Assembly: GCF_030908625.1 (NCBI RefSeq)
Contig: NZ_CP133133.1
Coordinates: 2,542,001 to 2,606,000, forward strand
Reading direction: 5' to 3'
DNA from: Paludicola sp. MB14-C6
GTDB lineage: Bacteria; Bacillota; Clostridia; Oscillospirales; Ruminococcaceae
DNA: 64,000 nucleotides
Position 1 is the first letter of the stretch. Every line of letters starts with the position of its first letter. Made by a program: the position numbers and the translations under genes. A model generated the notes under the pieces. The model was not told where the DNA came from. It saw only the letters and a program-made list of their open reading frames with translations, and did not search any database. This document shows positions 27,122 to 42,155 of this stretch, piece by piece.

Positions 27122-28120
27122 ATGAGTAATGCGAAAAGCAATGTTATTGCCAATGCGAAATCTGTACTTGAAAAAGAGTATACTTTATCACCCTATGCAC
27201 GTTTTTTGAATCAACACGGAATGTATTCTGCGGCACTATTTTATAAAAACTTGAATGAAACGCTCGAGCGGCGTGGAGCAAGAGCAATTCGTTATCGACT
27301 AGAAGAGGCAAGTGTGCCTGAGTATGTTGATGGGCAAGCTTTGTTTGCACATCATAATTACTGTATCCGTGATGATGTGGCGGATGATGACCAACAAGGC
27401 TATGGCTGTAGTGTAAGCTTTGACGGAATGTGTATAGTGGAAGAAGATAAGTTTGTTCGCTTATATGAGTTTGCCAAAACAGAGCAAGAGAAAAATATTG
27501 TAAAATCTGTTCTGACAAATGCAAGAAATATGTATTCAGATGCATCAACTGTTCGTTATCTTCATTACGGAACACATAACGTAATCGATTTTGAGTATAT
27601 CCTTAAAAATGGCTTTTGTGGCTATCGTGATAAAATTTTAAAAGCATTGGAAGAAGCAACAGACGAAGAGACAATACAGTTTCAACAAGCAATGCTTGAT
27701 ACTGTGGAAGGAATAATGAATTATGTTGAGCGATACCGAAGCAAGTTAAAACAAGCCCTAAATCAATCAATCGGTGATACAACAAAACTGCAACGGCTTG
27801 TTAATGTATTGGAACAGGTTCCTTTAAACCCGCCGACTAATTTTTATGAAGCATATGTGACTATGGATGCGGCAATGTATTTTAGTGATTGCTTTGAACC
27901 GGGTAGAATAGATGCGTTATTATATCCTTATTATGCAAAAGATTTAGCAGAGGGTAAGACAACGAAAGAAGAAGCAATTGCATTGATTCGTGAGTTATTT
28001 GCAGATATTGAGCAAAGAGCAGGTCATCCAGGGGCAACCCATGCTACAATTGGTGGAACAAAAGTAGATGGGACAGCAGACTATAACGAACTAACTGAGG
28101 TTTGCATCATTGCAATTTGA
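27122..28120 (+). CDS. Glycyl radical enzyme, N-terminal half (interrupted by TGA)
   Basis: A 332-residue N-terminal part of a PFL-like glycyl radical enzyme. It ends at TGA 28118-28120 after E-V-C-I-I-A-I. The frame continues without shift (G-L-R-M-P-N-V-S-L-R-V) into the next ORF, which carries the active-site Cys and the glycyl loop. The combined length is about 740 residues, close to whole enzymes. Relatives have a charged residue (often Arg or Lys) where the stop falls, and CGA to TGA is a single change. So this is a nonsense-interrupted gene, a split protein, or a sequencing error. The subclass is not recognised. The start has AAAGGG 10 nt before the ATG. Confidence 0.8.
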   Translation: MSNAKSNVIANAKSVLEKEYTLSPYARFLNQHGMYSAALFYKNLNETLERRGARAIRYRLEEASVPEYVDGQALFAHHNYCIRDDVADDDQQGYGCSVSFDGMCIVEEDKFVRLYEFAKTEQEKNIVKSVLTNARNMYSDASTVRYLHYGTHNVIDFEYILKNGFCGYRDKILKALEEATDEETIQFQQAMLDTVEGIMNYVERYRSKLKQALNQSIGDTTKLQRLVNVLEQVPLNPPTNFYEAYVTMDAAMYFSDCFEPGRIDALLYPYYAKDLAEGKTTKEEAIALIRELFADIEQRAGHPGATHATIGGTKVDGTADYNELTEVCIIAI

Positions 28121-28129
28121 GGGCTTAGA

Positions 28130-29347
28130 ATGCCAAACGTATCGTTGCGTGTTCGCAAGGATATGCCTCAATTCTTATGGGATACTTATTTAGAAAACAT
28201 GAGTAAGGGCTATGGCCAACCGGCAATTGTCAACGAAGATTTTTTTCTTGATGGATTAGTCAATCAATATAACGTTCCATTTGAAGATGCAGTAAACTAT
28301 GTGTTTGGAGGTTGTTCTGAATTACTAATCCAAGGTAAAACGATGTGTGATTCTACATGGGTAGCGTATAATATGCTTGATGTGTTTGAACATACCATGT
28401 ACAATAGCTTGTTGAATTGTGATACATTTGAAGAGTTTTATAATCGAGTAAAAAAGGATATTCAAATAACCTTAAAAGACATGACCAATCAAATAAATAT
28501 TCGTCAACATGCAGACGGGTTACATAATCCATATCCGGTTCGAACGCTTATGACCGGAGATTGTATTGATAATGCGAAAAGTTTTACAAATGGTGGAACA
28601 AGATATAATTTTGATTCTACCAATGTTTATGGAACCACAAATACAATCAATGCACTTTATACGGTTAAAAAATTGTATGACGGTGAGTTTGGAAACCTTT
28701 CAAAGGAAACATTCTTAAAAAGCTTTATTGCAAACTACAAAGGCTATGAGGATTTACTTGTCCAATATAAAGCTGTTCAAAAATTCGGTAACTTTAATGA
28801 AGAAATCAATCAAATTACCCAAGACATTATGGGGCTGACTTTTAATCAAATCAAACGATATAAATGCTATCGTGGAAATGGTAGATTTATGCCTGCTATT
28901 ATACTTTGGGTAACATGGGTGATTGGAGGCTTGAAAGTAGGTGCTACTCCTGATGGACGTGTTTGCAGTGAGCCTCTTGCTGACAGTGGCGGACCAATGC
29001 AAGGCACAGATATCGAAGGACCAACATCTACAATGGGTGCAACGCTTGCTATTCCACAAAAAGATTGTGTAGGAACTTGTGTTTTAAATTTACGTTTAGA
29101 TTCTAAAAATTTTCAAACACAAAAAAATCGATTGAAAGTACAACAGCTATTTCAAAGCTATTTTGAACAAGGCGGTTGTCAACTCCAAGTGAATGTTGTT
29201 GATACAAAAACGCTATTGGATGCAATGGAGCATCCGGAAAAACATCGTGACTTGATAGTCCGTGTTGGTGGTTTTTCCGATAATTTTGTATTATTGGATT
29301 CAAAGATTAAAGAGCAAATTTTATTACGAAGTGAATTTGAAGCTTAG
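28130..29347 (+). CDS. Glycyl radical enzyme, C-terminal half with active site
   Basis: A 405-residue part starting at ATG 28130, in frame with the preceding ORF and nine bases after its TGA. GAGGG spanning the stop is a plausible re-initiation site. The catalytic motif G-G-C62-S-E64 (C-x-E, as in dehydratase/decarboxylase-type members rather than the C-C of pyruvate formate-lyase) and the radical loop R-V-G-G381-F-S-D-N-F are both intact. If made, it could only function together with the N-terminal half. The C-x-E motif and the ferredoxin-bearing activase argue against classical PFL. The reaction remains unknown. Confidence 0.8.
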   Translation: MPNVSLRVRKDMPQFLWDTYLENMSKGYGQPAIVNEDFFLDGLVNQYNVPFEDAVNYVFGGCSELLIQGKTMCDSTWVAYNMLDVFEHTMYNSLLNCDTFEEFYNRVKKDIQITLKDMTNQINIRQHADGLHNPYPVRTLMTGDCIDNAKSFTNGGTRYNFDSTNVYGTTNTINALYTVKKLYDGEFGNLSKETFLKSFIANYKGYEDLLVQYKAVQKFGNFNEEINQITQDIMGLTFNQIKRYKCYRGNGRFMPAIILWVTWVIGGLKVGATPDGRVCSEPLADSGGPMQGTDIEGPTSTMGATLAIPQKDCVGTCVLNLRLDSKNFQTQKNRLKVQQLFQSYFEQGGCQLQVNVVDTKTLLDAMEHPEKHRDLIVRVGGFSDNFVLLDSKIKEQILLRSEFEA

Positions 29348-29633: not shown

Positions 29634-31139
29634 ATGAAAGGTAAAATCAAAGTATTATCTTTACTACTAGCTCTTGCGATGGTAGCATCCATGTTCGTAG
29701 CATGTAAAGACAAACCGGCACCTAGCAGCGAAGGTTCATCTTCAGCTCCTGCAAAACGTGAAGATGTAAACCTAATTTGGTATCATTGGGGCGACAAACC
29801 AAAACAACCAGACGCAGTAATTGCTGAATTAAACAAAATGTCAAAAGAAGCAATTCAAACAACAGTAGATTTCAGATTTGCAACTGGTGATGACCAAAAG
29901 TTAAAAACAATCATGTCAACTGGTGGCGAATTTGATATCGCTTTCACTTGTGCTTGGTTTGCTAACTATGTAGTTGCTGCACAAAACAACCAACTAGCTG
30001 ATTTAACTGAAAAACTACCAAAAGTAGCTCCAAAGCTTTGGGAATACATTCCTGAAAACTGTTGGGCTGGTGCTAGAGTAAATGGTAAAATTTACGCTGT
30101 ACCAACATACAAAGACTCAGCTGCAGCACAATACTGGACTGTACATAAAGAGTACGTTATTGATGGTGCAAAAGCAGATGCTGAACTAAAAGCAGCTGGT
30201 AAAAAATTATCAACAGTAACTCCTCTATTAGAGAAAGTTAAGAAATATCATGATGAGTCTAAAAAAGCATATCCTCATGATTTAACAGCTCCTATGAACT
30301 ATAACTGGGCTGGATTAAACGGCTTAGGAAATGGTTGGGATGACTTTGGTTTAAGTAATATCCGTATGGGTATCAACTTAACAGCTGGAAATACAAAAGT
30401 TATTTCTCAATATGATGATCCTGATTATGTTGCAGACCTAAAAACAATTAAATCATGGTATGACAATGGCTTAGTAAACAAAGGCGCTTCTGAAGTTGAA
30501 AAAGAATTTGAATTCCAAGTAGTAGGAACAGGCCAAGGATGGGACGGCTGTGAAGCTATCTGGGGTAGTGGTAAAGACTACACAATCCAAATGGTTAAGA
30601 AATATGGTCCTATTTACACAACTGGATCAATTCAAGGTTCAATGAACGGTATCAGCCCTAACTCAAAGAAAATTGACAGAGCTCTACAATACATTGAATA
30701 CATGAACACAAACAAAGACTACAGAAACACATTAGGTTACGGTATTAAAGGTACTAACTGGAAATTGAATGACCAAGGTCAAGTTGAAAACTTAACTAAG
30801 GATGCATGGCAACCAGGTATGTTTGCTCAAGCTTCATTCTTCGAGTTATACCCACTAAAACCAGCTCCAGCAAATATGTATACTAACTTAAAAGCAGTTA
30901 ATGACTCTGCTGAAGCATCTCCACTAGTAGGTTATGTACCAGTTGTTAAAGACCTACAAACAGAAATCGCAGCTTGTCAAGCAGTTATCGACAAACAATA
31001 CAAATATCTACAAACAGGTAATATTAAAGATGTTGATGCAACTGTTAATAAGCTAAAAGCTGATTTGAAAGCAGCAGGAATGGATAAAATTATTGCTGAA
31101 ATTCAAAAACAAGTTGATGAATTCTTAAAAGCTAAATAG
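29634..31139 (+). CDS. Extracellular solute-binding lipoprotein (DUF3502-like), copy 2
   Basis: A 501-residue paralogue of the protein at 5428, with lipobox F-V-A-C (Cys24), a short Ser/Pro-rich linker and the same N-L-I-W-Y-H-W-G-D opening. Most of the chain is identical among copies. The main variable patch lies about residues 235-265, where this copy reads N-I-R-M-G-I-N-L-T-A-G-N and is the most different. From 30627 to 30880 its DNA matches copy 4 base for base by eye. Ribosome site AGGAGG is 9 nt before the ATG. No transporter genes are near. Heavily biased codons suggest an abundant protein. Confidence 0.85.
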   Translation: MKGKIKVLSLLLALAMVASMFVACKDKPAPSSEGSSSAPAKREDVNLIWYHWGDKPKQPDAVIAELNKMSKEAIQTTVDFRFATGDDQKLKTIMSTGGEFDIAFTCAWFANYVVAAQNNQLADLTEKLPKVAPKLWEYIPENCWAGARVNGKIYAVPTYKDSAAAQYWTVHKEYVIDGAKADAELKAAGKKLSTVTPLLEKVKKYHDESKKAYPHDLTAPMNYNWAGLNGLGNGWDDFGLSNIRMGINLTAGNTKVISQYDDPDYVADLKTIKSWYDNGLVNKGASEVEKEFEFQVVGTGQGWDGCEAIWGSGKDYTIQMVKKYGPIYTTGSIQGSMNGISPNSKKIDRALQYIEYMNTNKDYRNTLGYGIKGTNWKLNDQGQVENLTKDAWQPGMFAQASFFELYPLKPAPANMYTNLKAVNDSAEASPLVGYVPVVKDLQTEIAACQAVIDKQYKYLQTGNIKDVDATVNKLKADLKAAGMDKIIAEIQKQVDEFLKAK

Positions 31140-31152
31140 TCTTTGACTATAT

Positions 31153-31182
31153 AAAAAAGAAGACCTTCGGGTCTTCTTTTTT
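31153..31182 (+). terminator. UUCG-loop terminator after copy 2
   Basis: A 13-bp stem AAAAAAGAAGACC with complement, closed by the stable TTCG tetraloop and ending in six T. Near-identical terminators follow copies 3 and 4. Confidence 0.95.
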
Positions 31183-31325
31183 GTGTGTTGTTATAACAAT
31201 GTGAGATGAAGCCTATGCATTATGAATAGGAACAAAATAAATGTGGCTAATTACCAATATTAGATAAAATTTATTCGCATGAATGTATTTTGGATAATAT
31301 TACTTAAATTTTAAACAAAATATTA

Positions 31326-31376
31326 AATTTATATTGACATTATATATTGAAATAATATATAATGTCAATATAAATT
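31326..31376. repeat. Perfect 23-bp inverted repeat containing a promoter on each strand
   Basis: Arms 31326-31348 and 31354-31376 are exact reverse complements around GAAAT. The plus strand carries TTGACA (31334-31339) and TATAAT (31358-31363) with an 18-bp spacer. By symmetry the minus strand carries TTGACA (31368-31363) and TATAAT (31344-31339). The plus-strand promoter drives binding-protein copy 3. The other points back into the copy 2 terminator. Confidence 0.85.
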
Positions 31377-31384
31377 GTGAAATG

Positions 31385-31410
31385 TGTCGATTTTAAATGT
31401 TATTTGTCGA
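31385..31410 (+). promoter_or_regulatory. Twin TGTCGA boxes, copy 3 leader
   Basis: TGTCGA at 31385-31390 and 31405-31410, exactly 20 bp apart, starting 22 bp downstream of the -10 box. The same pair at the same spacing is in the copy 4 leader (33280, 33300). Candidate direct-repeat operator. Confidence 0.55.
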
Positions 31411-31428
31411 ACATATACAATTTGCTAA

Positions 31429-31450
31429 ATTAACTCTTCAATGAGTTAAT
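31429..31450 (+). promoter_or_regulatory. Conserved leader hairpin, copy 3
   Basis: ATTAACTC pairs with GAGTTAAT around TTCAAT, followed by AAACATTTT and AGGAGG, 23 nt before the ATG. Confidence 0.6.
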
Positions 31451-31473
31451 AAACATTTTAGGAGGGTTTCATA

Positions 31474-32979
31474 ATGAAAGGCAAATTTAAAGCTATTTCC
31501 TTACTACTTGCAATTGCTATGGCAGCTTCTATGTTCGTAGCCTGTAAAAATGATAAGAAAACCGGTAGTAATGGAACATCTTCACAATCAGGAAAACGTG
31601 AAGAAGTAAACCTCATTTGGTATCACTGGGGTGATACACCTAAACGACCGGACGGAGTAATCAAAGAACTAAACAAAATGTCTAAAGAAGCAATTCAAAC
31701 AACTGTAGATTTTAGATTTACATCTGGCGACGACCAAAAGCTAAAAACGATTATGTCGACTGGTGGCGAATTTGATATTGCTTTCACTTGTGCTTGGTTT
31801 GCTAACTATGTAGTAGCTGCCCAAAACAATCAATTAGCCGACATTACCGATAAATTACAAACAGTAACACCAAAGCTTTGGGAATACATTCCTGAAAACT
31901 GTTGGACGGGATCAAGAGTAAAAGGCAAAATTTATGCTGTTCCAACATATAAAGATTCTGCTGCTACTCAATATTGGCAAGCAAACAAAGAGTATGTTAT
32001 TGATGGTGCAAAAGCAGAAGCTGAATTTAAAGCAACAAGTAAAGCTTTATCAACAGTAACTCCTCTATTAGAGAAAGTTAAAAAATATCATGATGAGTCT
32101 AAAAAACCATATCCACATGATTTAACTGCGCCATTAAATTACAACTGGGCTGGTTTAAATGGTCACAATAATGGTTGGGATACATTAGGCTTAGATAACC
32201 TACGTTTAGGTATTAAAATCGGAAGTAATAGTACAAAAGTTCAAAATATGTATGAAGATACTGAGTATATTAACGACCTAAAGACGTTAAAGTATTGGTA
32301 TGACAATGGATTAGTAAACAAAGGTGCTTCCGAAGTTGAAAAAGACTTTGAATTTAAAGTAATTGGAACTGAGCAAGGCTGGGAAGGCTGTGAAGCAGAA
32401 TGGGCCTTTGGTAAAGATTACTCAATAGTAATTAACAAAAAGTATGGTCCAATTTATACAACTGGATCCATTCAGGGTGCAATGAATGGTATTAGCCCTA
32501 ACTCAAAGAAAATTGACAGAGCATTAGAATATTTAGAATATGCTAATTTAAATAAAGAATATAGAAATACGCTTGCTTATGGCGTTAAGGGAGTAAACTG
32601 GAAGTTAAATGATCAAGGCCAAGTTGAAAGTTTAACTAAGGATGATTGGGCACCGGGTGCATGGGCACAAACATCAATCTTCGAATTATACCCATTAAAA
32701 CCAGCGCCAGCAGATATGTATACTAACTTAAAAGCGGTAAATGATTCAGCTGAAGCTTCACCGCTAGTAGGTTTCATACCAAATGTTGATAATTTACAAA
32801 CAGAAATCGCCGCTTGTCAAGCAGTTGTAGACAAACAATACAAATACATCCAAACAGGTAATGTTAAAGATGTAGATGCTACGATTAAACAGATTAACAC
32901 TGATTTAAAGACAGCTGGTTATGATAAAATTATTGCTGAGCTACAAAAACAAGTTGATGAATTCTTAAAAGCAAAATAA
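31474..32979 (+). CDS. Extracellular solute-binding lipoprotein (DUF3502-like), copy 3
   Basis: A 501-residue paralogue with the F-V-A-C lipobox. Its protein follows copy 1 closely in the variable patch (L-R-L-G-I-K-I-G-S-N). At the DNA level it has more silent differences than the others and less extreme codon bias (more CTT, ATT, GCG, CCG), so it looks like the oldest or least converted copy. Unique changes include D-T-P-K-R-P-D-G-V near the start and W-A-F-G-K-D around residue 310. It has its own palindromic promoter, leader hairpin and UUCG terminator, so it is an independent transcription unit. Role as for copy 1. Confidence 0.85.
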   Translation: MKGKFKAISLLLAIAMAASMFVACKNDKKTGSNGTSSQSGKREEVNLIWYHWGDTPKRPDGVIKELNKMSKEAIQTTVDFRFTSGDDQKLKTIMSTGGEFDIAFTCAWFANYVVAAQNNQLADITDKLQTVTPKLWEYIPENCWTGSRVKGKIYAVPTYKDSAATQYWQANKEYVIDGAKAEAEFKATSKALSTVTPLLEKVKKYHDESKKPYPHDLTAPLNYNWAGLNGHNNGWDTLGLDNLRLGIKIGSNSTKVQNMYEDTEYINDLKTLKYWYDNGLVNKGASEVEKDFEFKVIGTEQGWEGCEAEWAFGKDYSIVINKKYGPIYTTGSIQGAMNGISPNSKKIDRALEYLEYANLNKEYRNTLAYGVKGVNWKLNDQGQVESLTKDDWAPGAWAQTSIFELYPLKPAPADMYTNLKAVNDSAEASPLVGFIPNVDNLQTEIAACQAVVDKQYKYIQTGNVKDVDATIKQINTDLKTAGYDKIIAELQKQVDEFLKAK

Positions 32980-32993
32980 ACTTTGACTATAGT

Positions 32994-33021
32994 AAAAAGA
33001 AGACCTTCGGGTCTTCTTTTT
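32994..33021 (+). terminator. UUCG-loop terminator after copy 3
   Basis: AAAAAGAAGACC, TTCG loop and complementary arm ending in five T, almost identical to the terminators of copies 2 and 4. Confidence 0.95.
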
Positions 33022-33227
33022 ATATGTAATTTATGGAATACAATAAAGAGTTGTTAATAGTGAATTACTATTTTTGGAAAATAAAAATGTTCATAAAATT
33101 AACAAAATGTTGATAAAATAAGGCTTTGAATTGAATATAAACTTGATAAAGGAAAATTGAAGTATTTAAAAGTTATCTAATAATTGGATTTTATAACCTG
33201 TAATAAATAAAAAATAATGAAATGGTA

Positions 33228-33257
33228 TTGACAAACGACATGAAAAACTTATATAAT
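33228..33257 (+). promoter_or_regulatory. Promoter of binding-protein copy 4
   Basis: TTGACA at 33228-33233 and TATAAT at 33252-33257 with an 18-bp spacer. The 200 bp between this and the preceding terminator hold nothing else recognisable. Confidence 0.85.
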
Positions 33258-33279
33258 GGTAAATGTAAATTGTGCATTA

Positions 33280-33305
33280 TGTCGATGAAATGTTGTTTTT
33301 GTCGA
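33280..33305 (+). promoter_or_regulatory. Twin TGTCGA boxes, copy 4 leader
   Basis: TGTCGA at 33280-33285 and 33300-33305, 20 bp apart, starting 23 bp after the -10 box, as in copy 3. Confidence 0.55.
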
Positions 33306-33326
33306 ATAAATGTGCAATTGACTATT

Positions 33327-33347
33327 TTAACTCAATTGTAGAGTTAA
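33327..33347 (+). promoter_or_regulatory. Conserved leader hairpin, copy 4
   Basis: TTAACTC pairs with GAGTTAA around a 7-base loop, followed by TAAAATTATT and AGGAGG before the ATG at 33372. Confidence 0.6.
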
Positions 33348-33371
33348 TAAAATTATTAGGAGGATTTCGTA

Positions 33372-34874
33372 ATGAAAGGCAAAATCAAAGTTTTATCATT
33401 ACTACTAGCTCTTGCTATGGTAGCTTCTATGTTCGTAGCATGTAAACAAGAGAAAAAAGCTAGTGGCGATGCATCATCTTCTGCTGGTAAACGCGAAGAA
33501 GTGAACCTAATTTGGTATCACTGGGGTGACAAACCAAAACAACCAGACGCAGTAATTGCTGAATTAAACAAAATGTCTAAAGAAGCAATTCAAACAACTG
33601 TAGATTTTAGATTTACAACTGGCGACGACCAAAAGTTAAAAACTATTATGTCAACTGGTGGCGAATTTGATATCGCTTTCACTTGTGCTTGGTTTGCTAA
33701 CTATGTAGTTGCTGCACAAAACAACCAACTAGCTGATTTAACAGAAAAACTACCAAAAGTAGCTCCAAAACTTTGGGAATACATTCCTGAAAACTGTTGG
33801 GCTGGTGCAAAAGTAAATGGTAAAATTTACGCTGTACCAACTTACAAAGACTCTGCTGCTACTCAATACTGGACAGCAAATAAAGAATACGTTATCGATG
33901 GTGCAAAAGCAGAAGCTGAATTTAAAGCAACTGGTAAAGCATTATCAACAGTAACTCCTCTATTAGAGAAAGTTAAAAAATATCATGATGAGTCTAAAAC
34001 TGCATATCCTCATGACTTAACTGCTCCATTCAACTACAACTGGGCTGGCTTAAATGGTCACAACAATGGTTGGGATACATTAGGACTAGATAATGTTCGT
34101 GTTGGTATTAAATTAGGTAACAACAACACAAAAGTAACAACATTATATGATGATGCTGATTACATCAATGACCTAAAAACATTAAAATCTTGGTATGACA
34201 ATGGTTTAGTAAACAAAGGCGCTTCTGAAGTTGAAAAAGAATTTGAATTCCAAGTAGTAGGAACAGGCCAAGGTTGGGAAGGTTGTGAAGCTATCTGGGG
34301 TAGCGGAAAAGATTACTCAATCGTTCTAAACAAAAAATATGGTCCTATCTACTCTACTAACTCAATTCAAGGTTCAATGAACGGTATCAGCCCTAACTCA
34401 AAGAAAATTGACAGAGCTCTACAATACATTGAATACATGAACACAAACAAAGACTACAGAAACACATTAGGTTACGGTATTAAAGGTACTAACTGGAAAT
34501 TGAATGACCAAGGTCAAGTTGAAAACTTAACTAAGGATGCATGGCAACCAGGTATGTTTGCTCAAGCTTCATTCTTCGAGTTATACCCACTAAAACCAGC
34601 TCCAGCAAATATGTACACTAACTTAAAAGCAGTTAATGACGCAGCTGAAGCATCTCCACTAGTAGGTTTTGTACCAAAAGTAGATACCCTACAAACTGAA
34701 ATTGCAGCTTGTCAAGCAGTAATGGATAAACAATACAAATACCTACAAACTGGTAACGTTAAAGATGTAGACGCAACAGTTAACAAAATTAAAGCTGACG
34801 TAAAAGCAGCTGGTATGGACAAAATTATTGCTGAGCTACAAAAACAAGTTGATGAATTCTTAAAAGCTAAATAG
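33372..34874 (+). CDS. Extracellular solute-binding lipoprotein (DUF3502-like), copy 4
   Basis: A 500-residue paralogue with lipobox F-V-A-C. It is a DNA mosaic: 33867-34001 matches copy 1 (5911-6045) and 34362-34615 matches copy 2 (30627-30880) without a visible difference, while the variable patch (V-R-V-G-I-K-L-G-N-N-N) is its own. That pattern points to gene conversion across 28 kb. Codon bias is strong. It has its own promoter, leader and terminator. The role is presumably capture of an oligosaccharide at the cell surface for an importer encoded elsewhere. Confidence 0.85.
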   Translation: MKGKIKVLSLLLALAMVASMFVACKQEKKASGDASSSAGKREEVNLIWYHWGDKPKQPDAVIAELNKMSKEAIQTTVDFRFTTGDDQKLKTIMSTGGEFDIAFTCAWFANYVVAAQNNQLADLTEKLPKVAPKLWEYIPENCWAGAKVNGKIYAVPTYKDSAATQYWTANKEYVIDGAKAEAEFKATGKALSTVTPLLEKVKKYHDESKTAYPHDLTAPFNYNWAGLNGHNNGWDTLGLDNVRVGIKLGNNNTKVTTLYDDADYINDLKTLKSWYDNGLVNKGASEVEKEFEFQVVGTGQGWEGCEAIWGSGKDYSIVLNKKYGPIYSTNSIQGSMNGISPNSKKIDRALQYIEYMNTNKDYRNTLGYGIKGTNWKLNDQGQVENLTKDAWQPGMFAQASFFELYPLKPAPANMYTNLKAVNDAAEASPLVGFVPKVDTLQTEIAACQAVMDKQYKYLQTGNVKDVDATVNKIKADVKAAGMDKIIAELQKQVDEFLKAK

Positions 34875-34889
34875 TCTTTGACTTATAGT

Positions 34890-34920
34890 AAAAAAAGAAG
34901 ACCTTCGGGTCTTCTTTTTT
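34890..34920 (+). terminator. UUCG-loop terminator after copy 4
   Basis: AAAAAAGAAGACC, TTCG loop, complementary arm with seven T. Ten bases further is the stop of the convergent kinase gene, which may use it too. Confidence 0.95.
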
Positions 34921-34930
34921 TATGTGTTGA

Positions 34931-36889
34931 TTAAGCTTCTATACCATCATTATAATAAACTTCTTCATCAAATACATTGTTATAATACCATGCACCTTTT
35001 CCATGCTTTAAGCCATTTCTAAATCCGCCTTTGTAACTCCATCCACTCACACCATGATATTCAGCATATCCATTTAAATAGCCATTGCTCCAAGTTCCAA
35101 TTAGTTGATCTCCTACGTCCCACTTTGAAGGTACTTCTTCTGTAACTGTAAATGTTCCTTTACCGTTTGGCTTGCCATCTTTCCATTCACCGGTATATGT
35201 GCCTTTTACTGTGTATAAGTTTGTGATAATTGTATGTGGTTCATTGACAGCTTTTGAGATTGCCGCTTCCACCGTTATTGTACAAGTAGCCGTTTTATTT
35301 CCATCTTTTGATGTGACTGTAATGATTGCAGCTCCTGCACCTTTTGCCGTAACTTGCCCATTATTGATTGAAGCTACAGAATTATTATCTGAAGACCAAA
35401 TCAGTTGCTTATTTGATGCATTGGATGGAGTGATGCTGGCAGATAATGTTAATTGATCCCCGATATTTAACTTTGCACTTGACTTACTGATTGAAATATT
35501 TGTCACAGGAATATTACTGTTGTCTGCTTGAGATTTATCATTGCTTGTAGTCGAACTTGATACAGTAGTTTCTTTAGAGTTGTTCGGTTCCTGTGATGAG
35601 GTTTTGCTGTTTATACTCTCTTTTGAGGAATTGATTTGCATTGAGCTTGTGCTAGCTTGTGTTGTTTGATTTGAAGTAGTCTTAGAACTGATGGAGTGGT
35701 TGGCGTTCTGAACGTTATTCGTATTTGGCACAAACGGGTTCATTTTTGGAAACGAGTTTATTACAATTACAAAAATAATAATTACTGCACATATAGAGCC
35801 CGCAATGCCAATCAATTTTTTATTATTATGAAAGAATTCTGCTATGCGAAGCTTCTTTTTCGGTTGCAGTGGAGATGTTTTTGCATAACTATCAACTATG
35901 TTGTTTTGTTCTTGTGGGAATAGGTTTAAATCATTTTTAAATTCAATGATAGTTTGATACCGATCAATAGCACGAACGGAAAGAGCTTTTTTTAGTGCTC
36001 TTTCAAAAGAAGGTGAAACGGGGAAACCAAGTTCTGAAGGCATCTTTAAGGTATCTTCTTCTAATCGATCTAAAGCAGAGTCGGGAGTTCTGCCTGTCAA
36101 ACAATAATACATAGTTGCACCAAGCCCATAAATATCTGTCCATTGGCCTTGTTTTCCTCTAGTTTGATATTGTTCGATAGGTGCAAACCCCTGTTTTAGT
36201 ACAACTGACAGACTTTTTGATTCTTCTCCTAAAACTTGTCTTGCCGCACCAAAATCAATGAGTTTTACATTTTTATCACTGGTTAAAAAAATATTGTCAG
36301 GAGATATATCTCGATGTAAGACGCCAATGTTGTGAACAATAATTAAAGCTTGCATAATTGGAGCAATCAGTTCTACTAATTCTTCTTCTGATATTTGCTT
36401 TCCTGATTCCATCATATATCTTTTCAGATCAACGCCCTCAAGATATTCCATTACAAAATATGCTGTTTCATTCTCATAGAAAAACTCATATACAGAAACA
36501 ATATTAGGATTTCCATTAAATTTAGATACAATTTTTGCTTCTTCTAAAAAGCTGTGTGCACCCTTTTGAAATAACTCTGTTTTTTCGCCTGTGTAGATAG
36601 AAAGCTTTGTTTGGTTTAAATGTCTTGTAGCTAAACCATCAGGAAAATATTCTTTGATAGCCACTTTTTTTTCTAACTTCAAATCAAAGCCTAAATAAGT
36701 AACACCAAATCCCCCACGTCCAAGCTTTTTTCCGATTAGATATCTACCTAATAGTATTTCACCAATAGGTAGAATGCCGATTTCAGGATTATAGTTTTCC
36801 TTTACAAAATTACATTCGTTACATTGTTCAAATTCACTTGATAACAACTTAAAACAGCTATCACAGAAAAACTGATCATTGATTTGCAT
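34931..36889 (-). CDS. Membrane Ser/Thr protein kinase with Ig-like (Big_2) and MORN outer domains
   Basis: A 652-residue protein. A C-x2-C...C-x2-C zinc ribbon (about 9-26) precedes a Hanks-type kinase domain (about 50-325): G-R-G-G-F-G loop, V-A-I-K, H-R-D-I-S-P-D-N in place of H-R-D-L-K-P-x-N, and D-F-G. A membrane segment (about 355-377) and a Ser/Thr/Asn-rich linker follow. Outside are a Big_2 Ig-like domain (about 465-545) and several MORN-like repeats (Y-T-G-E-W-K-D-G-K-P-N-G-K-G and two or three weaker ones). It is the last gene of a six-gene phosphorylation operon, 39 bp after its paralogue. No PASTA repeats are present. It probably binds a cell-wall or surface ligand. Confidence 0.9.
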   Translation of the reverse strand: MQINDQFFCDSCFKLLSSEFEQCNECNFVKENYNPEIGILPIGEILLGRYLIGKKLGRGGFGVTYLGFDLKLEKKVAIKEYFPDGLATRHLNQTKLSIYTGEKTELFQKGAHSFLEEAKIVSKFNGNPNIVSVYEFFYENETAYFVMEYLEGVDLKRYMMESGKQISEEELVELIAPIMQALIIVHNIGVLHRDISPDNIFLTSDKNVKLIDFGAARQVLGEESKSLSVVLKQGFAPIEQYQTRGKQGQWTDIYGLGATMYYCLTGRTPDSALDRLEEDTLKMPSELGFPVSPSFERALKKALSVRAIDRYQTIIEFKNDLNLFPQEQNNIVDSYAKTSPLQPKKKLRIAEFFHNNKKLIGIAGSICAVIIIFVIVINSFPKMNPFVPNTNNVQNANHSISSKTTSNQTTQASTSSMQINSSKESINSKTSSQEPNNSKETTVSSSTTSNDKSQADNSNIPVTNISISKSSAKLNIGDQLTLSASITPSNASNKQLIWSSDNNSVASINNGQVTAKGAGAAIITVTSKDGNKTATCTITVEAAISKAVNEPHTIITNLYTVKGTYTGEWKDGKPNGKGTFTVTEEVPSKWDVGDQLIGTWSNGYLNGYAEYHGVSGWSYKGGFRNGLKHGKGAWYYNNVFDEEVYYNDGIEA

Positions 36890-36928
36890 TTGTAATCACC
36901 CTCTTATATTGTCAAAGAATTGGTTGTG

Positions 36929-38674
36929 TTATTTGGGAATTTTTCCGGTTCCTTTGCAAATGGTACAAGTGTGTGGCTCTTCATGTTTTGGGCAAGGGTC
37001 ACCAACTTTAAAGGAAACCCCATTTATACTACCGCTTGTAGTGGCATATCCAGTACCAGAGCAAGTGGTACATTTCATCATGCCTGTTCCAGCACACCAC
37101 CAACAAGTTTTATAATTATCTTCAGATGAAGTTATAGAACTAGTGTCAGTACTACTTGGTGTTGAAGAAGGACTACTTGAATTAGGCGGGGATGAACTTG
37201 TCGATTGTGATGAGGTTTTATGAGATGATTGTGTATAAGAAGTTGTGTTAGTATTATTGTTACTAGCAGCTTGTGATGTAGCAGTATGACTTGTTTCTTG
37301 ACTAGCTGATGATTGTGAACTATGCGAAGAGACTTTTCCTGCATTTGAAATTATATTTTTCGTACTTGAAGAAGCTTTACTCTCTTCTTGTGAGTTAAGT
37401 TGACTAGCATTATTACTGCTTATGTCACTTGATAATGGAATAGAGCTATCACCATCTTCTAATACAGCAGTTGCTTTTGGGCTATTTGTAAACCAATTTT
37501 GATTACGAAAGCCTAGAACGACAGCCGTTGTAGAAACACCAATTACCATAATAATACTAGTTATAATTGCAATTGGCTTTCTGTTCTTTCGTATAAATGC
37601 AAACATTTTTTGTATGCTGCCACTCATCTTGTCTTGCAAATTTTTAATATTTACGTTAGATGATTTCTTCCTTATTGGCTTTTCTTCAACCGCTTTTGGC
37701 AACAGAGATAACAAATCATTTTTAAATTCGAGCATTGTTTGATACCGATCTGTATATCGGATTGACAATGCCTTTTTTAATATCTTTTCAAAAGTAGGCG
37801 AAACTGCAATACCAAGTTCTGATGGCATCTTCAAGGTATCTTCTTCTAATCGATCTAATGCACATTCAGGTACTTTACCGGTTAAGCAATAATATATTGT
37901 TGCTGCAAGCCCGTAAATATCAGTCCATTGTCCTTGTTTTCCTTTGGATTGATATTGCTCAATTGGGGCAAACCCTTGCTTTAATATGATAGACAAACTT
38001 TTAGATTGTTCTCCAAGCACCTGCCTTGCAGCGCCAAAATCAATCAACTTGGCATTGTTATCTTTTGTAATAAAGATATTATCGGGTGAAATATCTCGGT
38101 GTAGTACACCAAGGCTGTGCACAATGATAAGTGCATCCATTATTGGAAGAATGATATCAATGATTTCTTTTTCAGAAAAAAAGCTTTGTGATTGTGTAAG
38201 ATGTTGCTTTAAGTCAACACCTTCCAGATATTCCATCACAAAATATGCGGTTTCATTTTCATAGAAGAATTCATATACGGAAACGATGTGGGGGTTGCCA
38301 TTGAATTTTGAGACAATCCTTGCTTCTTCTAAAAAGCTTTGTGCACCTCTTTTGAACAGCTCCGTTTTTTCACCTGTATAAATTGAAAGTACAGTTTGAT
38401 TGAAATATCTTGTTGCTAAGCCATCGGGTAGATATTCTTTGACCGCCACTTTTTTATCTAATTTTAAGTCATAACCTAGATAAGTAACACCAAAGCCACC
38501 ACGTCCAAGCTTTTTTCCAATAACATATCTACCTAATAATATTTCACCTATAGGAAGTATGCCAATTTCAGGATGATAGTCTTCCTTTATAAATTTACAT
38601 TCGCTACATTGTTCTAATTCACTTGATAACTCATTGAAACAATTATCACAGAAAAACCTATCGTTAATTTGCAT
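36929..38674 (-). CDS. Membrane Ser/Thr protein kinase with DnaJ-type CxxCxGxG tail
   Basis: A 581-residue paralogue of the neighbouring kinase: zinc ribbon (C9, C12, C23, C26), kinase domain with G-R-G-G-F-G, catalytic K79 (V-A-V-K), H-R-D-I-S-P-D-N and D-F-G, then a membrane segment (about 370-392) and a long Ser/Thr-rich stalk. The C-terminal 60 residues hold three DnaJ-type finger halves: C-W-W-C-A-G-T-G, C-T-T-C-S-G-T-G and C-T-I-C-K-G-T-G. By topology these are outside the cell, an odd place for a chaperone-type zinc module. ATG 38674 is chosen because GAAGGG lies 10 nt before it and the paralogue starts at the same M-Q-I-N-D. Confidence 0.9.
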   Translation of the reverse strand: MQINDRFFCDNCFNELSSELEQCSECKFIKEDYHPEIGILPIGEILLGRYVIGKKLGRGGFGVTYLGYDLKLDKKVAVKEYLPDGLATRYFNQTVLSIYTGEKTELFKRGAQSFLEEARIVSKFNGNPHIVSVYEFFYENETAYFVMEYLEGVDLKQHLTQSQSFFSEKEIIDIILPIMDALIIVHSLGVLHRDISPDNIFITKDNNAKLIDFGAARQVLGEQSKSLSIILKQGFAPIEQYQSKGKQGQWTDIYGLAATIYYCLTGKVPECALDRLEEDTLKMPSELGIAVSPTFEKILKKALSIRYTDRYQTMLEFKNDLLSLLPKAVEEKPIRKKSSNVNIKNLQDKMSGSIQKMFAFIRKNRKPIAIITSIIMVIGVSTTAVVLGFRNQNWFTNSPKATAVLEDGDSSIPLSSDISSNNASQLNSQEESKASSSTKNIISNAGKVSSHSSQSSASQETSHTATSQAASNNNTNTTSYTQSSHKTSSQSTSSSPPNSSSPSSTPSSTDTSSITSSEDNYKTCWWCAGTGMMKCTTCSGTGYATTSGSINGVSFKVGDPCPKHEEPHTCTICKGTGKIPK

Positions 38675-38686
38675 AGACATCACCCT

Positions 38687-39406
38687 TCATTCATTTACAA
38701 AAACAGCAATTGCGGTAAAATTATCATTATCTTTTAATTGCTTCAGTAAAATTCGTTTTATCATATATGATAGCCAGTGATTGGGTGAAATCGATTTTAC
38801 TAAATCGGCTTCCATCTCAGCTTCATAAACATATTCCCAAAAACCATCGGAGCAAAGTAAAAAGGCATCGTTATTCTCAATAGAAATTGGATATTCTAAT
38901 TTCTTAATATTCAAGTCATCATCGTTTCCCAATACCTTTAGAAGTTTATTTCTATCCTCATGAAATCTGATGTCTTCGTATTTTATTTCTCCAATCGTTG
39001 CGGCTACTTGAGAAACTGAGTGATCTTTCGATTGATGATAAAGGCAGCCATTTTTAAAATAATACAATCTGCTATCACCAACATGAAAATATCGAAAATC
39101 ATAATGATCTATAAAAGCAGCGACAACGGTAGTACACATTTTTTTATGACGCTGCTGTTGCTTTAGCATGATATTTGCATTGTTCATCATTTCTAACAAT
39201 GTGTTTTCATCATAGCTACAATCATTTTTACTTTCGTTTAGAAGATAATCACATACTAACTTAGATGCTATTTCACCATCATGATGCCCACCCAATCCAT
39301 CACATAAAATAAATTGAGATTGTGCATTGGTAATGTTATAGCAGCAATAATCTTCATTGTTACTTCTGCCACCTGTATTGGTGTATGAATTTGCAGTAAT
39401 ATTCAT
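38687..39406 (-). CDS. PP2C-type Ser/Thr phosphatase
   Basis: A 239-residue soluble PPM/PP2C phosphatase. Metal-binding motifs are visible: the N-terminal N-N-E-D, D-G-L-G-G (first metal Asp), G-D-S-R-L-Y, K-D-H-S and C-S-D-G-F-W-E near the C terminus, and a final D-N-F-T. It should remove phosphate from Ser/Thr on the kinases and FHA partners encoded around it. It lies 2 bp after the protease-FHA gene and 12 bp before the kinase gene, so it is in one operon. It is a diverged paralogue of the phosphatase at 40583. Confidence 0.93.
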   Translation of the reverse strand: MNITANSYTNTGGRSNNEDYCCYNITNAQSQFILCDGLGGHHDGEIASKLVCDYLLNESKNDCSYDENTLLEMMNNANIMLKQQQRHKKMCTTVVAAFIDHYDFRYFHVGDSRLYYFKNGCLYHQSKDHSVSQVAATIGEIKYEDIRFHEDRNKLLKVLGNDDDLNIKKLEYPISIENNDAFLLCSDGFWEYVYEAEMEADLVKSISPNHWLSYMIKRILLKQLKDNDNFTAIAVFVNE

Positions 39407-39408
39407 AT

Positions 39409-40590
39409 TTATTTAACCTCAAATTGATTTTCTTCTCCACCTAAATAAAATGAGTCACCAATGTTAAGCTTTACAGGAGTATTTGGAATAAGCTTTGTAC
39501 CGTTACTTAAAAATGTTCCATAAGTTGAATTTAAATCTTTCAAATACAAACTATTGTTTTCATTGTATACTTCGCAATGCTTACCACTTACGCCTTTTGT
39601 GTCAATTGGAAAAGCAATTTTACATTTGGAGCTGTCTCTACCGATAAGTACTTTTTCATTAATGGAAAAACTTTTACCTATTAGTAGTCCCGCTATTCCA
39701 ACAATAGCAAATGCCTTTTCAGGCGTATAAGGTGCAGTTGACGCAAAATTTTGCGGCTTTTGAACTTTTGAAACTGCCTTTTTTGTTTTTGGCGATTTCT
39801 TTTTCATAACAAGCCATATGATAAGAGCGACCACGAGAATCAAGGCAACGCCACCAATTGCAATAAACAGAATTAACTTTTTATTTATTTCGCCTGTTAC
39901 GCTATAGGCAATTGTGTTGCGATCAATATTTCGCATAACTTCGTTGATTGCAATTGCATAGTTTGCTTTTACGTCAGTGGCTTTATCTTTTAAATAGAAT
40001 GAGTTAATTCCAACAACTTCACCTTTAGAGTTTACCAGTGGTCCGCCAGAATTTCCTTCGCTAATTTGTAAATCAAGAAGATAGCAATCTTCACCGTCAA
40101 TTCTGGATTGTTTCACAATACCGCCTTTAGTAATGGAAATATCACTTTTATCAAATTTAGGAACATTTTCATTTGTGTAAGCACCAGGGTATCCCAAAGC
40201 TGCAAAATCATCATCCATATTTATTTTTTCCATAGGGCAAAGAACAAGAGGTTTTCTCTCGGTTGTTGGTTCAGGCAGTTTTAAAATTGCAATATCTAAT
40301 TTTTCATTAAAGTAATAAACTTCTGCAATATTAAAGCGATTAGCAGCATAAGAAAAGTAAACCTTTACCGCAGTATTTGCCATTCCAACAACATGAGCAT
40401 TGGTTACAATATACTGAATCGGTTTGCCCGTTTCGCCAATTGCAAATCCGGAACCCCATGAATTATCTGTTAAAATGAATACAACGCTGTCTTTAGATTG
40501 GCTGGGAGTAGCGGCTGAAACAGGAAATGCAAGAAATGATGCCATTAAAATTGTAATTGTGATGAGAATAGCAAATCCTTTTTTACTCAT
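39409..40590 (-). CDS. Secreted trypsin-like serine protease with transmembrane anchor and cytoplasmic FHA domain
   Basis: A 393-residue type I membrane protein. A signal peptide (1-26, cleavage after V-S-A) leads an S1/HtrA-type protease domain (about 30-220) with triad His in T-N-A-H-V-V-G, Asp in L-D-I-A-I-L-K and Ser in G-N-S-G-G-P. A membrane segment (about 237-262) and basic stop-transfer residues follow, then an FHA domain (about 300-393) with G-R-D-S-S, the phospho-Thr contact S-G-K-H and N-S-T-Y-G-T. The protease is outside and the FHA inside, so kinase signalling in the cytoplasm could be coupled to proteolysis outside. It overlaps the upstream phosphatase gene by 8 bp. Confidence 0.92.
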   Translation of the reverse strand: MSKKGFAILITITILMASFLAFPVSAATPSQSKDSVVFILTDNSWGSGFAIGETGKPIQYIVTNAHVVGMANTAVKVYFSYAANRFNIAEVYYFNEKLDIAILKLPEPTTERKPLVLCPMEKINMDDDFAALGYPGAYTNENVPKFDKSDISITKGGIVKQSRIDGEDCYLLDLQISEGNSGGPLVNSKGEVVGINSFYLKDKATDVKANYAIAINEVMRNIDRNTIAYSVTGEINKKLILFIAIGGVALILVVALIIWLVMKKKSPKTKKAVSKVQKPQNFASTAPYTPEKAFAIVGIAGLLIGKSFSINEKVLIGRDSSKCKIAFPIDTKGVSGKHCEVYNENNSLYLKDLNSTYGTFLSNGTKLIPNTPVKLNIGDSFYLGGEENQFEVK

Positions 40591-41455
40591 AATTTGTCCT
40601 CTTTTCTGAATTCATTTCAATAATCATAACGGTAGAATTGTCTTGTGTTTTCAATTTTTTATACATAACACCATAAATGATGTTTTCACAAGCATCTTGT
40701 GGCTGTGCTTTTAAATAGGTTTGGAGTTCAGTTTTTGACAGTGTTTGATATACTCCATCTGTGCACAGTATTATTTTGTCGCCATTTTGTAATGTGAAAT
40801 AACGTTTTGTGGTTTCAATCAGCTTTAAATTTGGAATACCAATGTAGCTTGTTAAATTATCTTTTTGCAAATCTGAAAAAGCTAAGGAAAGGGGATATTC
40901 GGAGTTTATATATTGCGATAGCAGCTTATTTTGATAGTCATGGTCCTCGTTGAGTTGATGTAAATATCCGTTTCGAAATAAGTATATTCGGCTGTCACCA
41001 ATAGAACACCAAAATAATTTATTTTGGTGAATAATTGCTGTGAGTAAGGTAGCACCACAATCAGAAAGTTCTTGCGTCATAATATCATAGTTTATTTTTT
41101 GTGCAATATTTTGCAATTGTTGAGAAATGGGATTGGTTAAGTTTATTTGTGGGAAAGCAGTTAAAACACTTTTTACAACAAAATTACTTACTATATGTCC
41201 ATTATTCAAGCCACCAATTCCATCGGATAATACAGCACAAATTCCGTTTTGCATTAGCAAATTTTGATTACCTAAATCCGAAAAAGCAAACGCATCCTCT
41301 TGAATTTTACGTTTGCCAATATGCTGGGCATTTCCAACCCAATAATGATATGTTATCGTTTCAAAAGGTACTTTTATAAACTCTTGTGGAGGTTTATATA
41401 TTTGAAGAGTTTTTCCTATCTTTCTTTTTTCAAACAAAGTAATATTCACTCCCAT
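40583..41455 (-). CDS. PP2C-type Ser/Thr phosphatase, second
   Basis: A 290-residue PPM phosphatase with about 50 extra N-terminal residues compared with the one at 38687. Motifs: Q-E-D, S-D-G-I-G-G-L-N-N-G-H, I-G-D-S-R-I-Y-L-F, N-E-D-H and C-T-D-G-V-Y-Q-T-L, then D-N-S-T-V near the end. It begins inside the FHA gene (10-bp overlap) and ends inside the protease gene start (8-bp overlap), so translation of the three is coupled. Two phosphatases with two kinases suggests paired arms. No membrane segment. Confidence 0.93.
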   Translation of the reverse strand: MGVNITLFEKRKIGKTLQIYKPPQEFIKVPFETITYHYWVGNAQHIGKRKIQEDAFAFSDLGNQNLLMQNGICAVLSDGIGGLNNGHIVSNFVVKSVLTAFPQINLTNPISQQLQNIAQKINYDIMTQELSDCGATLLTAIIHQNKLFWCSIGDSRIYLFRNGYLHQLNEDHDYQNKLLSQYINSEYPLSLAFSDLQKDNLTSYIGIPNLKLIETTKRYFTLQNGDKIILCTDGVYQTLSKTELQTYLKAQPQDACENIIYGVMYKKLKTQDNSTVMIIEMNSEKRTNYE

Positions 41456-42018
41456 TGAAAGTTATCATTACACAAAGCTTTAAATAAAAGTTTTGTATTG
41501 CCGATTTTGATTGTATCATTATCATTTAAAATGACAGGTACAAGTAAAAGTGATTGATTTAACTTAACATTGTTTTTTTGATTTTCACTGGTTTGAATAT
41601 AAAACTGATTTTCTTGTGAATCATAGCTTATGATAATTGTTCCGCTAGGTGCGATTTTGGTATCAAAATCTAAGCATACATCATTGCTTTTTTCTTTGCC
41701 AATAAAATTCTTTTCATTATGTAAGGGAAAGCTTTTTCCTTTTTTGTTTCCTTCAATACAAATAAGCCAACCTACAACGAAATCATGGTTATCATCTGAT
41801 TGCGAATGATAATAGGGTTGAGTAACTCCAATATCATTTTTTGTTTGTGCAATTGGCATTGTATTAGGAATCACATCTTTTGATGCTTGCGTTTTACCAA
41901 TTGTGTTTTCATAGAGCGGAACAGTAACTCCAATAACTTGATTTCCCGCACAATAGGGGCATTGAGGATGTTTTTTACTATCATAGTTATGACCATTTTC
42001 ACATTGTATGATTGCCAT
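41446..42018 (-). CDS. Zinc-ribbon FHA-domain protein with degenerate phosphopeptide site
   Basis: A 190-residue protein and first gene of the operon. It starts M-A-I-I-Q-C-E-N-G-H with a C...H...C-P-Y-C zinc-ribbon-like segment (about 6-26). After a Thr-rich linker that could be phosphorylated (V-T-V-P, G-K-T, V-T-Q-P) comes an FHA-like fold (about 85-185, I-G-K-E-K-S-N-D-V-C-L). At the place of the conserved S-x-x-H the sequence is A-P-S-G-T, so classical phospho-Thr binding may be lost. ATG 42018 is preferred to an upstream in-frame TTG because GGAG lies 9 nt before it. Confidence 0.85.
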   Translation of the reverse strand: MAIIQCENGHNYDSKKHPQCPYCAGNQVIGVTVPLYENTIGKTQASKDVIPNTMPIAQTKNDIGVTQPYYHSQSDDNHDFVVGWLICIEGNKKGKSFPLHNEKNFIGKEKSNDVCLDFDTKIAPSGTIIISYDSQENQFYIQTSENQKNNVKLNQSLLLVPVILNDNDTIKIGNTKLLFKALCNDNFQWE

Positions 42019-42155
42019 AAAAATCAGCTCCAACTGTAAAAAAATAATAATGTTAATAATATTTTACTGTAATTTTTTATAAATTACAAGAGGTGTGGAA
42101 ACGTAATTTTATAATTATTTTCACTAGATTTAACCTATATATTTTTTAAAATGTG

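Follow-up and report, generated by a model that had tools for sequence, protein, structure and literature searches.

Can phosphorylation inside a bacterial cell control a protease on its surface? This question is raised by a six-gene operon in Paludicola sp. MB14-C6. We analysed a 64,000-nucleotide stretch of its genome (NZ_CP133133.1, positions 2,542,001 to 2,606,000, hereafter the window; the genome is a single contig of 2.94 Mb), in which six co-directional minus-strand open reading frames (ORFs) run from 42018 to 34931 with overlaps or gaps of at most 39 bp. In order of transcription they are:

41446..42018, minus strand: FHA1, an adaptor with an N-terminal Cys/His zinc ribbon, a linker and a degenerate FHA domain (ORF, Pfam, alignments)
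40583..41455, minus strand: PP2Ca, a soluble PP2C phosphatase with the checked Asp residues intact (Pfam, hydropathy, residue check)
39409..40590, minus strand: the protease, with a signal-like helix, an S1 (trypsin/HtrA-like) protease domain, one transmembrane helix and a predicted cytoplasmic FHA domain (Pfam, alignment, hydropathy)
38687..39406, minus strand: PP2Cb, a second PP2C phosphatase (Pfam, residue check)
36929..38683, minus strand: kinase 2, with a zinc ribbon, Hanks kinase domain, transmembrane helix, Ser/Thr-rich stalk and CxxCxGxG tail predicted outside (Pfam, hydropathy, sequence)
34931..36889, minus strand: kinase 1, with a zinc ribbon, Hanks kinase domain, transmembrane helix and an ectodomain of Big_2 and MORN repeats (Pfam, hydropathy)

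FHA1 overlaps PP2Ca by 10 bp and PP2Ca overlaps the protease gene by 8 bp; gaps of 2, 3 and 39 bp follow at the protease/PP2Cb, PP2Cb/kinase 2 and kinase 2/kinase 1 junctions. From kinase 1 to FHA1, Pfam matched Pkinase with Big_2 and MORN, Pkinase, PP2C_2, Trypsin_2 with FHA, PP2C_2, and FHA. All catalytic residues checked were intact, including the G-loop, VA(I/V)K, HRD and DFG motifs of both kinases and the Asp positions checked in the PP2Cs. These coordinates, matches and residues bear out a sequence-only reading made earlier of this DNA, which had described the six genes as one operon in this place and order. Encoded together and with their catalytic residues kept, they form a module of the known Hanks-type kinase/PP2C/FHA kind, with an unusual output.

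We propose that this output is a stand-alone, phosphorylation-controlled surface protease, a reading to which we assign a probability of about 0.48, slightly short of even. The two kinases would sense something outside through interchangeable ectodomains and would, inside the cell, phosphorylate FHA1 on the threonines of its linker T-x-P repeats, and possibly themselves as well. The cytoplasmic FHA domain of the protease would bind the FHA1 phosphothreonines, so that the protease gathers around the kinases and its outer S1 domain comes near its substrates, for which kinase stalks or ectodomains and neighbouring envelope proteins are candidates. The two PP2Cs would remove the phosphates and release the protease, and control would run from the inside out. 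The suggested order, from kinase to FHA1 linker to protease FHA domain, is based on FHA1 having a motif-rich linker and a degenerate FHA domain of its own, while the protease FHA domain keeps Gly, Arg, Ser and His.

Hydropathy placed a signal-like helix at residues 6-24 of the protease and a single transmembrane helix at residues 240-258, and the parts of the protein are:

40006..40455, minus strand: S1 protease domain with the triad H66/D99/S181, predicted outside (Pfam, alignment)
39817..39873, minus strand: transmembrane helix (hydropathy)
39439..39651, minus strand: FHA domain with Gly317, Arg318, Ser335, His338 and Tyr357 at the usual Asn, predicted inside (Pfam, alignment)

The triad was invariant in three overlapping sets of 28, 36 and 120 aligned relatives, and the FHA arginine was present in 28/28, 32/36 and 120/120 of them. 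Both a signal and a mid-protein transmembrane helix were found in 115 of the 120 by a crude hydropathy rule. According to passages of PMC4037201, the FHA signature comprises Gly, Arg, Ser, His and Asn, with direct contacts made by Arg, Ser and Asn. Pfam FHA finds two such domains in the genome at E 0.001. Both belong to this operon, and only that of the protease retains Gly, Arg, Ser and His; within the reach of this Pfam model, FHA-read phosphothreonine signalling is therefore confined to the operon. At the same threshold the genome has four kinase matches (two in the operon, a strong one beside a PP2C elsewhere and a weak one) and three PP2C_2 matches, two of them in the operon. A PP2C-protease fusion, P0090, was rejected as evidence from gene fusion because its transmembrane region looks frame-shifted.

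FHA1 has the following parts:

41782..41949, minus strand: linker with three T-x-P motifs, proposed phospho-acceptors (motif counts)
41917-41925, minus strand: T-x-P motif at T32
41854-41862, minus strand: T-x-P motif at T53
41815-41823, minus strand: T-x-P motif at T66
41500..41703, minus strand: FHA domain with Lys108 for Arg, Ala123 for Ser and Thr127 for His (Pfam, alignment)

The gene starts at an ATG, with an in-frame TTG also at 42033. The zinc-ribbon Cys and His are invariant in 31 aligned rows, and the FHA domain matched Pfam at 23.7 bits (cut-off 20.7). Among 39 FHA1 sequences, Arg is kept in 38, Ser in 34 and His in 31, the family His sitting one residue later than in SxxH. The Paludicola copy is the only one with Lys for Arg, and Ala replaces Ser in 4 of the 39. 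This copy lacks the Arg, Ser and His of a phosphothreonine reader and has a linker rich in T-x-P, which makes it a doubtful reader and more likely a phospho-substrate. The FHA adaptor named in the sequence-only reading is thus present, but the reader role implied for it is in doubt.

The linker motif recurs across the family. In 67 FHA1 linkers (rows L188 and P0122 were dropped by the linker rule), T.P occurred 107 times against 37.4 after shuffling, with L, I or V next in 66 cases. In 29 non-redundant FHA1 sequences (<45% identity, wider linker rule), T.P occurred 51 times against 16.2 ± 3.7 and T.P[LIVM] 34 times against 2.6 ± 1.6, and neither T..P (18 versus 15.6) nor S.P (7 versus 14.0) was enriched. 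As controls, the cytoplasmic linkers of the kinases gave 35 T.P against 36.6, and the PP2Ca body gave 18 against 11.6, with 6 T.P[LIVM] against 2.9. Only in FHA1 is the aliphatic form strong; plain T.P is also mildly common in folded parts. The protease's own linker seemed to carry a T-x-P signal as well, but this proved to be a redundancy artefact: T.P[LIVM] occurred 52 times against 5.0 in 120 database relatives, but 5 times against 1.8 (maximum 6) in a 50%-non-redundant set.

Several observations weigh against control of the protease through FHA1. The FHA arginine is absent from 4 of the 36 more diverse protease relatives. The position of Tyr357, which we take from Rad53 to be that of the signature Asn, is Tyr in 117 of 120 relatives and, among the 36, Tyr in 23 and Asn in 7; NBS1-type FHA domains do tolerate Tyr there. 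The motifs of this FHA1 read T-V-P-L, T-M-P-I and T-Q-P-Y, the last without an aliphatic residue at +3, and 19 of the 67 linkers have no T-x-P, many carrying GKTVA-like repeats instead. Outside FHA1, T.P[LIVM] is slightly raised in the cytoplasmic linkers of the kinases (11 versus 5.7 ± 2.2), and T.P is in excess in the kinase ectodomains (100 versus 60.8 ± 6.7; T.P[LIVM] 18 versus 13.1) and in PP2Cb (24 versus 12.8 ± 3.3; T.P[LIVM] 5 versus 2.9). Shuffling overstates the significance of the linker counts, since the linkers are related, and the pThr+3 rule is described in passages of PMC4037201 as unreliable or disputed.

The cassette is conserved beyond this genome and is met again across Clostridia of the gut. 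A protease profile built from 28 sequences (A1) found matches at E 1e-40 in 23 of the 394 order genomes and in 14 of the 391 class genomes, the source genome being counted in both and a few of the class matches covering the protease part only. Among eight genomes of the genus, it matched only that of the window (E 1e-20), and the distribution is patchy. We fetched 22 of the 23 places in the order beyond the window, 9 of the 14 new places in the class and 9 from a search of family genomes, leaving aside G127:C8, G194, G042, G064, G046 and weaker HtrA-like rows. From these 40 regions L192 (a copy of L037) and L210 (match stopping before the FHA domain, no cassette gene) were dropped, and L034-L038 were added, the only loci used of 80 in a contig scan that matched mostly plain HtrA-like proteins. 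In the resulting 43 protease-bearing loci, PP2Ca was present at no less than 100 bits in 43, FHA1 in 42, a kinase in 41 and full PP2Cb in 37. Not all of these loci are independent: protease identity is 98.6% for L211/L213 and 88% for L182/L183. The two loci without a kinase (L185, L209) are contigs ending beside the cluster. The sequence-only reading would have been refuted by a protease not conserved together with the kinases; instead the two travel together, and the synteny that it proposed to look for in other Clostridia was found. Chance does not account for the grouping, since relatives repeatedly carry these families together.

Gene order and orientation are kept as well. Reciprocal searches added three loci, for a total of 46, and across these all 212 cassette genes are on a single strand. 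FHA1 comes immediately before PP2Ca in 42 of 45 loci, and the protease directly follows PP2Ca in 30 of 45, PP2Cb intervening in most others. Kinases of at least 100 bits number one to four per locus, and zero in two loci. Four of the six loci lacking full PP2Cb (L182, L183, L204, L205) have a short remnant of about 107-109 residues (23-46 bits) between protease and kinase, and its retention suggests that it may have a non-catalytic role. A comparison with empty sites was uninformative: around HtpG in five same-genus loci, HtpG alone matched window genes.

The kinases differ in what they expose. Their transmembrane helices follow the kinase domains at residues 359-377 and 371-389, and we took a weaker hydropathy peak within each kinase domain to be a core helix. 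Against the PASTA kinase family (PrkC/Stk1, NF033483) they scored 155.3 and 155.8 bits, below the cut-off of 450, and Pfam matched no PASTA ectodomain in either. The CxxCxGxG tail of kinase 2 had no Pfam match, its three motifs being read directly in the sequence. Across the operon's own kinases and 12 further ones scanned, ectodomains vary around a constant core: LRR_5, LRR_4, Listeria-Bacteroides repeat, Big_2/MORN, a weak DUF5050 and several without a Pfam match.

This variety bears on the direction of signalling. The protease could instead be the sensor or trigger, cleaving either the kinase ectodomains or envelope proteins that are damaged or misfolded, with its FHA domain reporting to the kinases and PP2Cs. 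The HtrA-like protease domain, the Ser/Thr-rich extracellular stalk of kinase 2 and the possibility that the FHA domain docks on autophosphorylated kinases are consistent with this. However, Pfam matched no PDZ or other peptide-sensing domain on the protease, and the sensory variety resides in the kinases. We therefore consider the outside-in direction unlikely, although it deserves serious weight beside the phosphorylation-controlled protease.

We consider it improbable that the operon is a detached or accessory regulator of a type VII secretion system (T7SS) or other secretion machine encoded elsewhere. Passages of PMC11217815 describe T7SSc-f and j components (TsxD, TsxF, TsxJ) that likewise group membrane kinases, PP2C phosphatases and FHA proteins in one cluster, with T7SSe, f and j carrying kinase and/or PPM phosphatase and FHA parts. 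Unlike these, the operon had no EssC, WXG100 or DUF6382 partner by the queries used and has an S1 protease-transmembrane-FHA protein instead; the word 'trypsin' does not occur in the main text of that paper. EssC (TIGR03928) exceeded its cut-off in 0 of 38 genomes with the module, that of the window included, versus 7 of 35 without it, a contrast that is suggestive only, because the comparison genomes were hand-picked from listed non-hits and are not a matched random control. Genome G405 has a 1461-residue frame with a partial EssC match. Queries from L239, L244 and L247 found no relatives of EssC, WXG100 or DUF6382 in the 43 loci, apart from two matches, both weak and FHA-level, to vWA-FHA proteins of L208 and L209; the WXG100 search used the single L239 query, which misses divergent forms.

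Sister cassettes without the S1 protease are what favours a secretion role. The FHA1 and PP2Ca profiles each matched 34 of the 394 order genomes in reciprocal searches. The protease reached 1e-40 in 23 of the 34 FHA1 genomes and lay below that threshold in three more (G272, G296 and G388, in the last in two frames), and eight lacked it. In one of these, G132 (L239), PP2Cb-PP2Ca-FHA1-kinase-kinase has as neighbours a WXG100 gene and an EssC scoring 1144 bits. G508 (L245) carries a DUF6382-FHA-like gene and, below cut-off, a WXG100-like one, and G412 (L244) and G063 (L247) have DUF6382-FHA genes. In G295 (L240) our queries found no T7SS gene in the stretch, and EssC is on another contig. G528 (L246, G528:C7, 2435-6930) has, instead of the S1 protease, genes for a lipoprotein-like S8 protease-Big_2-vWA-transmembrane-FHA protein and a DUF975-FHA protein beside the FHA1/PP2C/kinase cassette. 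In G184 (L248:4742-18700) and G469 (L249:913-14368), FHA1-PP2Ca-PP2C genes lie beside rows of large genes that look similar in both genomes. The large genes scanned had no Pfam, NCBIfam or informative PHROG match and may belong to an unrecognised machine. The kinase at L239:1228-4536, in the T7SS-linked cassette, has seven PASTA matches.

On a quick PP2Ca tree of 59 rows, however, the protease-bearing loci group apart, S1 protease presence requiring 2 changes where shuffling gave 11.0 on average; the branch of the window's copy is long, with weak support (81) for where it is placed. Where T7SS genes were looked for, the module was found outside T7SS loci, in line with the sequence-only reading. 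Its sharp contrast with T7SS settings holds for the protease-bearing loci and not for the sister FHA1/PP2C/PP2C/kinase cassettes, which can lie beside T7SS genes, as in L239. The core of the cassette is thus common to T7SS phospho-modules.

Marginally less probable again is generic envelope quality control, with the protein substituting for HtrA and its FHA domain merely an anchor. Like MarP, HtrA and DegS, the protein has an S1 catalytic domain predicted outside, and MarP and DegS have a membrane anchor; unlike them, it has a C-terminal cytoplasmic FHA domain and no PDZ match. It matched the HtrA (Do) family TIGR02037 at 74.1 bits (cut-off 416.2) and, over the protease part only, the MarP family NF033740 at 83.7 bits (cut-off 250), below both cut-offs. 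Against quality control stand the retention of the FHA Arg, Ser and His in nearly all relatives and the tie of the gene to kinases and PP2Cs. Moreover, at E 1e-3 matches occur in 187 of 197 family genomes, the weaker of those listed through the protease part alone, so that ordinary HtrA-like genes are often present where the cassette is absent.

Least probable of all is a kinase-phosphatase toxin-antitoxin or anti-phage module of the KKP kind, which likewise encodes two kinases and a PP2C together and for which generic kinase matches to the PADLOC models PD-T4-6 and mads_6 could speak, but KKP kinases are, in passages of PMC11341870, fused to cold-shock and FHA domains, mostly prophage-borne and restricted to Gram-negative bacteria, whereas both operon kinases are transmembrane and fall outside the KKP definition, having no Pfam match to either domain, a surface protease is present, no mobile or defence gene was found among 14 flanking proteins scanned, and the listed matches among 66 protease relatives from viral contigs nearly all end before the FHA domain (one reaches residue 372).

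The surroundings of the operon are ordinary. A divergent GH18 gene lies upstream, the GC content equals that of the surroundings, and the flanking genes scanned encode DUF3502, GH18, a CAAX-type protease, pyruvate-formate-lyase-like pieces, UvrC, MFS, radical SAM and other proteins. Between the end of the operon and a convergent gene lies one further feature:

34888..34923, no strand assigned (listed on the plus strand): terminator-like hairpin of 16 pairs (consensus scan only)

Five such sites were found in the window versus 3.9 expected. Promoter-like sites showed no excess (36 versus 36.8 in shuffles), and Rfam at gathering thresholds had no match anywhere in the window. At 27122-29347, two neighbouring frames of 332 and 405 residues correspond to consecutive portions of a pyruvate formate-lyase-like enzyme, and the second includes the glycine-radical domain; the pair may be a split gene or a two-subunit form. 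Tandem DUF3502 ORFs (31474-32979 and 33372-34874) follow another ORF of similar length (29634-31139), the whole run covering 29634-34874.

Other membrane and surface proteins carry the FHA domain in such cassettes. It is fused to RDD, DUF805, vWA-transmembrane and PrsW proteins, and in the sister cassette to S8-vWA. In two loci (L034:10693-12051 and L201:9394-10686) a PrsW intramembrane protease-FHA gene directly follows the S1 protease-FHA gene. Among the best 120 of 384 relatives of the S8-vWA-FHA protein, we counted by eye about 34 with S8 and FHA, about 37 with M4-family and FHA, and 46 with vWA and FHA and neither protease; M4 metalloprotease-vWA-FHA forms are among the relatives. Eight sampled examples had a hydrophobic N-terminal start and a transmembrane helix before the FHA domain. 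Cassette linkage of the S8 form comprises one locus; a genome search for the context of M4-vWA-FHA genes gave matches in 7 of 135 genomes (one being G528), and the cassette was in none of the six loci fetched (one a 4.5-kb contig).

Known FHA proteins offer partial parallels. In passages of PMC8546545, GarA/OdhI with PknG resemble FHA1 as small FHA proteins with a phosphorylatable Thr motif (a proposed one in FHA1) outside the FHA domain, and kinase and FHA domain dock by pThr. In contrast, FHA1 has a zinc ribbon, T-x-P repeats, a degenerate FHA domain and, in this copy, no ETTS motif, and it would partner a transmembrane protease instead of metabolic enzymes. The sole architecture with FHA and trypsin met in literature passages is the FHA-FHA-trypsin protein NP_811686.1 of Bacteroides thetaiotaomicron (PMC2605481), and that paper mentions neither a kinase nor a phosphatase. 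No paper listed by literature searches, whose coverage left out most subscription journals, describes a surface protease anchored through FHA within a kinase/phosphatase cassette.

These operons tentatively suggest, less surely than the single-operon reading, that Clostridia have a general means of controlling surface proteolysis from the inside out. Thr phosphorylation of a multi-site cytoplasmic adaptor would recruit transmembrane proteases through an inner FHA domain; the FHA tag would be a plug common to S1, S8-vWA, PrsW, M4, vWA and RDD proteins, and kinase ectodomains would be swapped to change the stimulus. The system is testable in this organism, whose two Pfam FHA domains both lie in the operon. 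To our knowledge, surface outputs of bacterial Ser/Thr kinases are rarely known. With a phosphothreonine reader wired across the membrane to a protease, a conserved cassette would provide the kinases with a direct output, connect FHA signalling to envelope proteolysis, and account for the parts common to T7SS phospho-modules and these operons.

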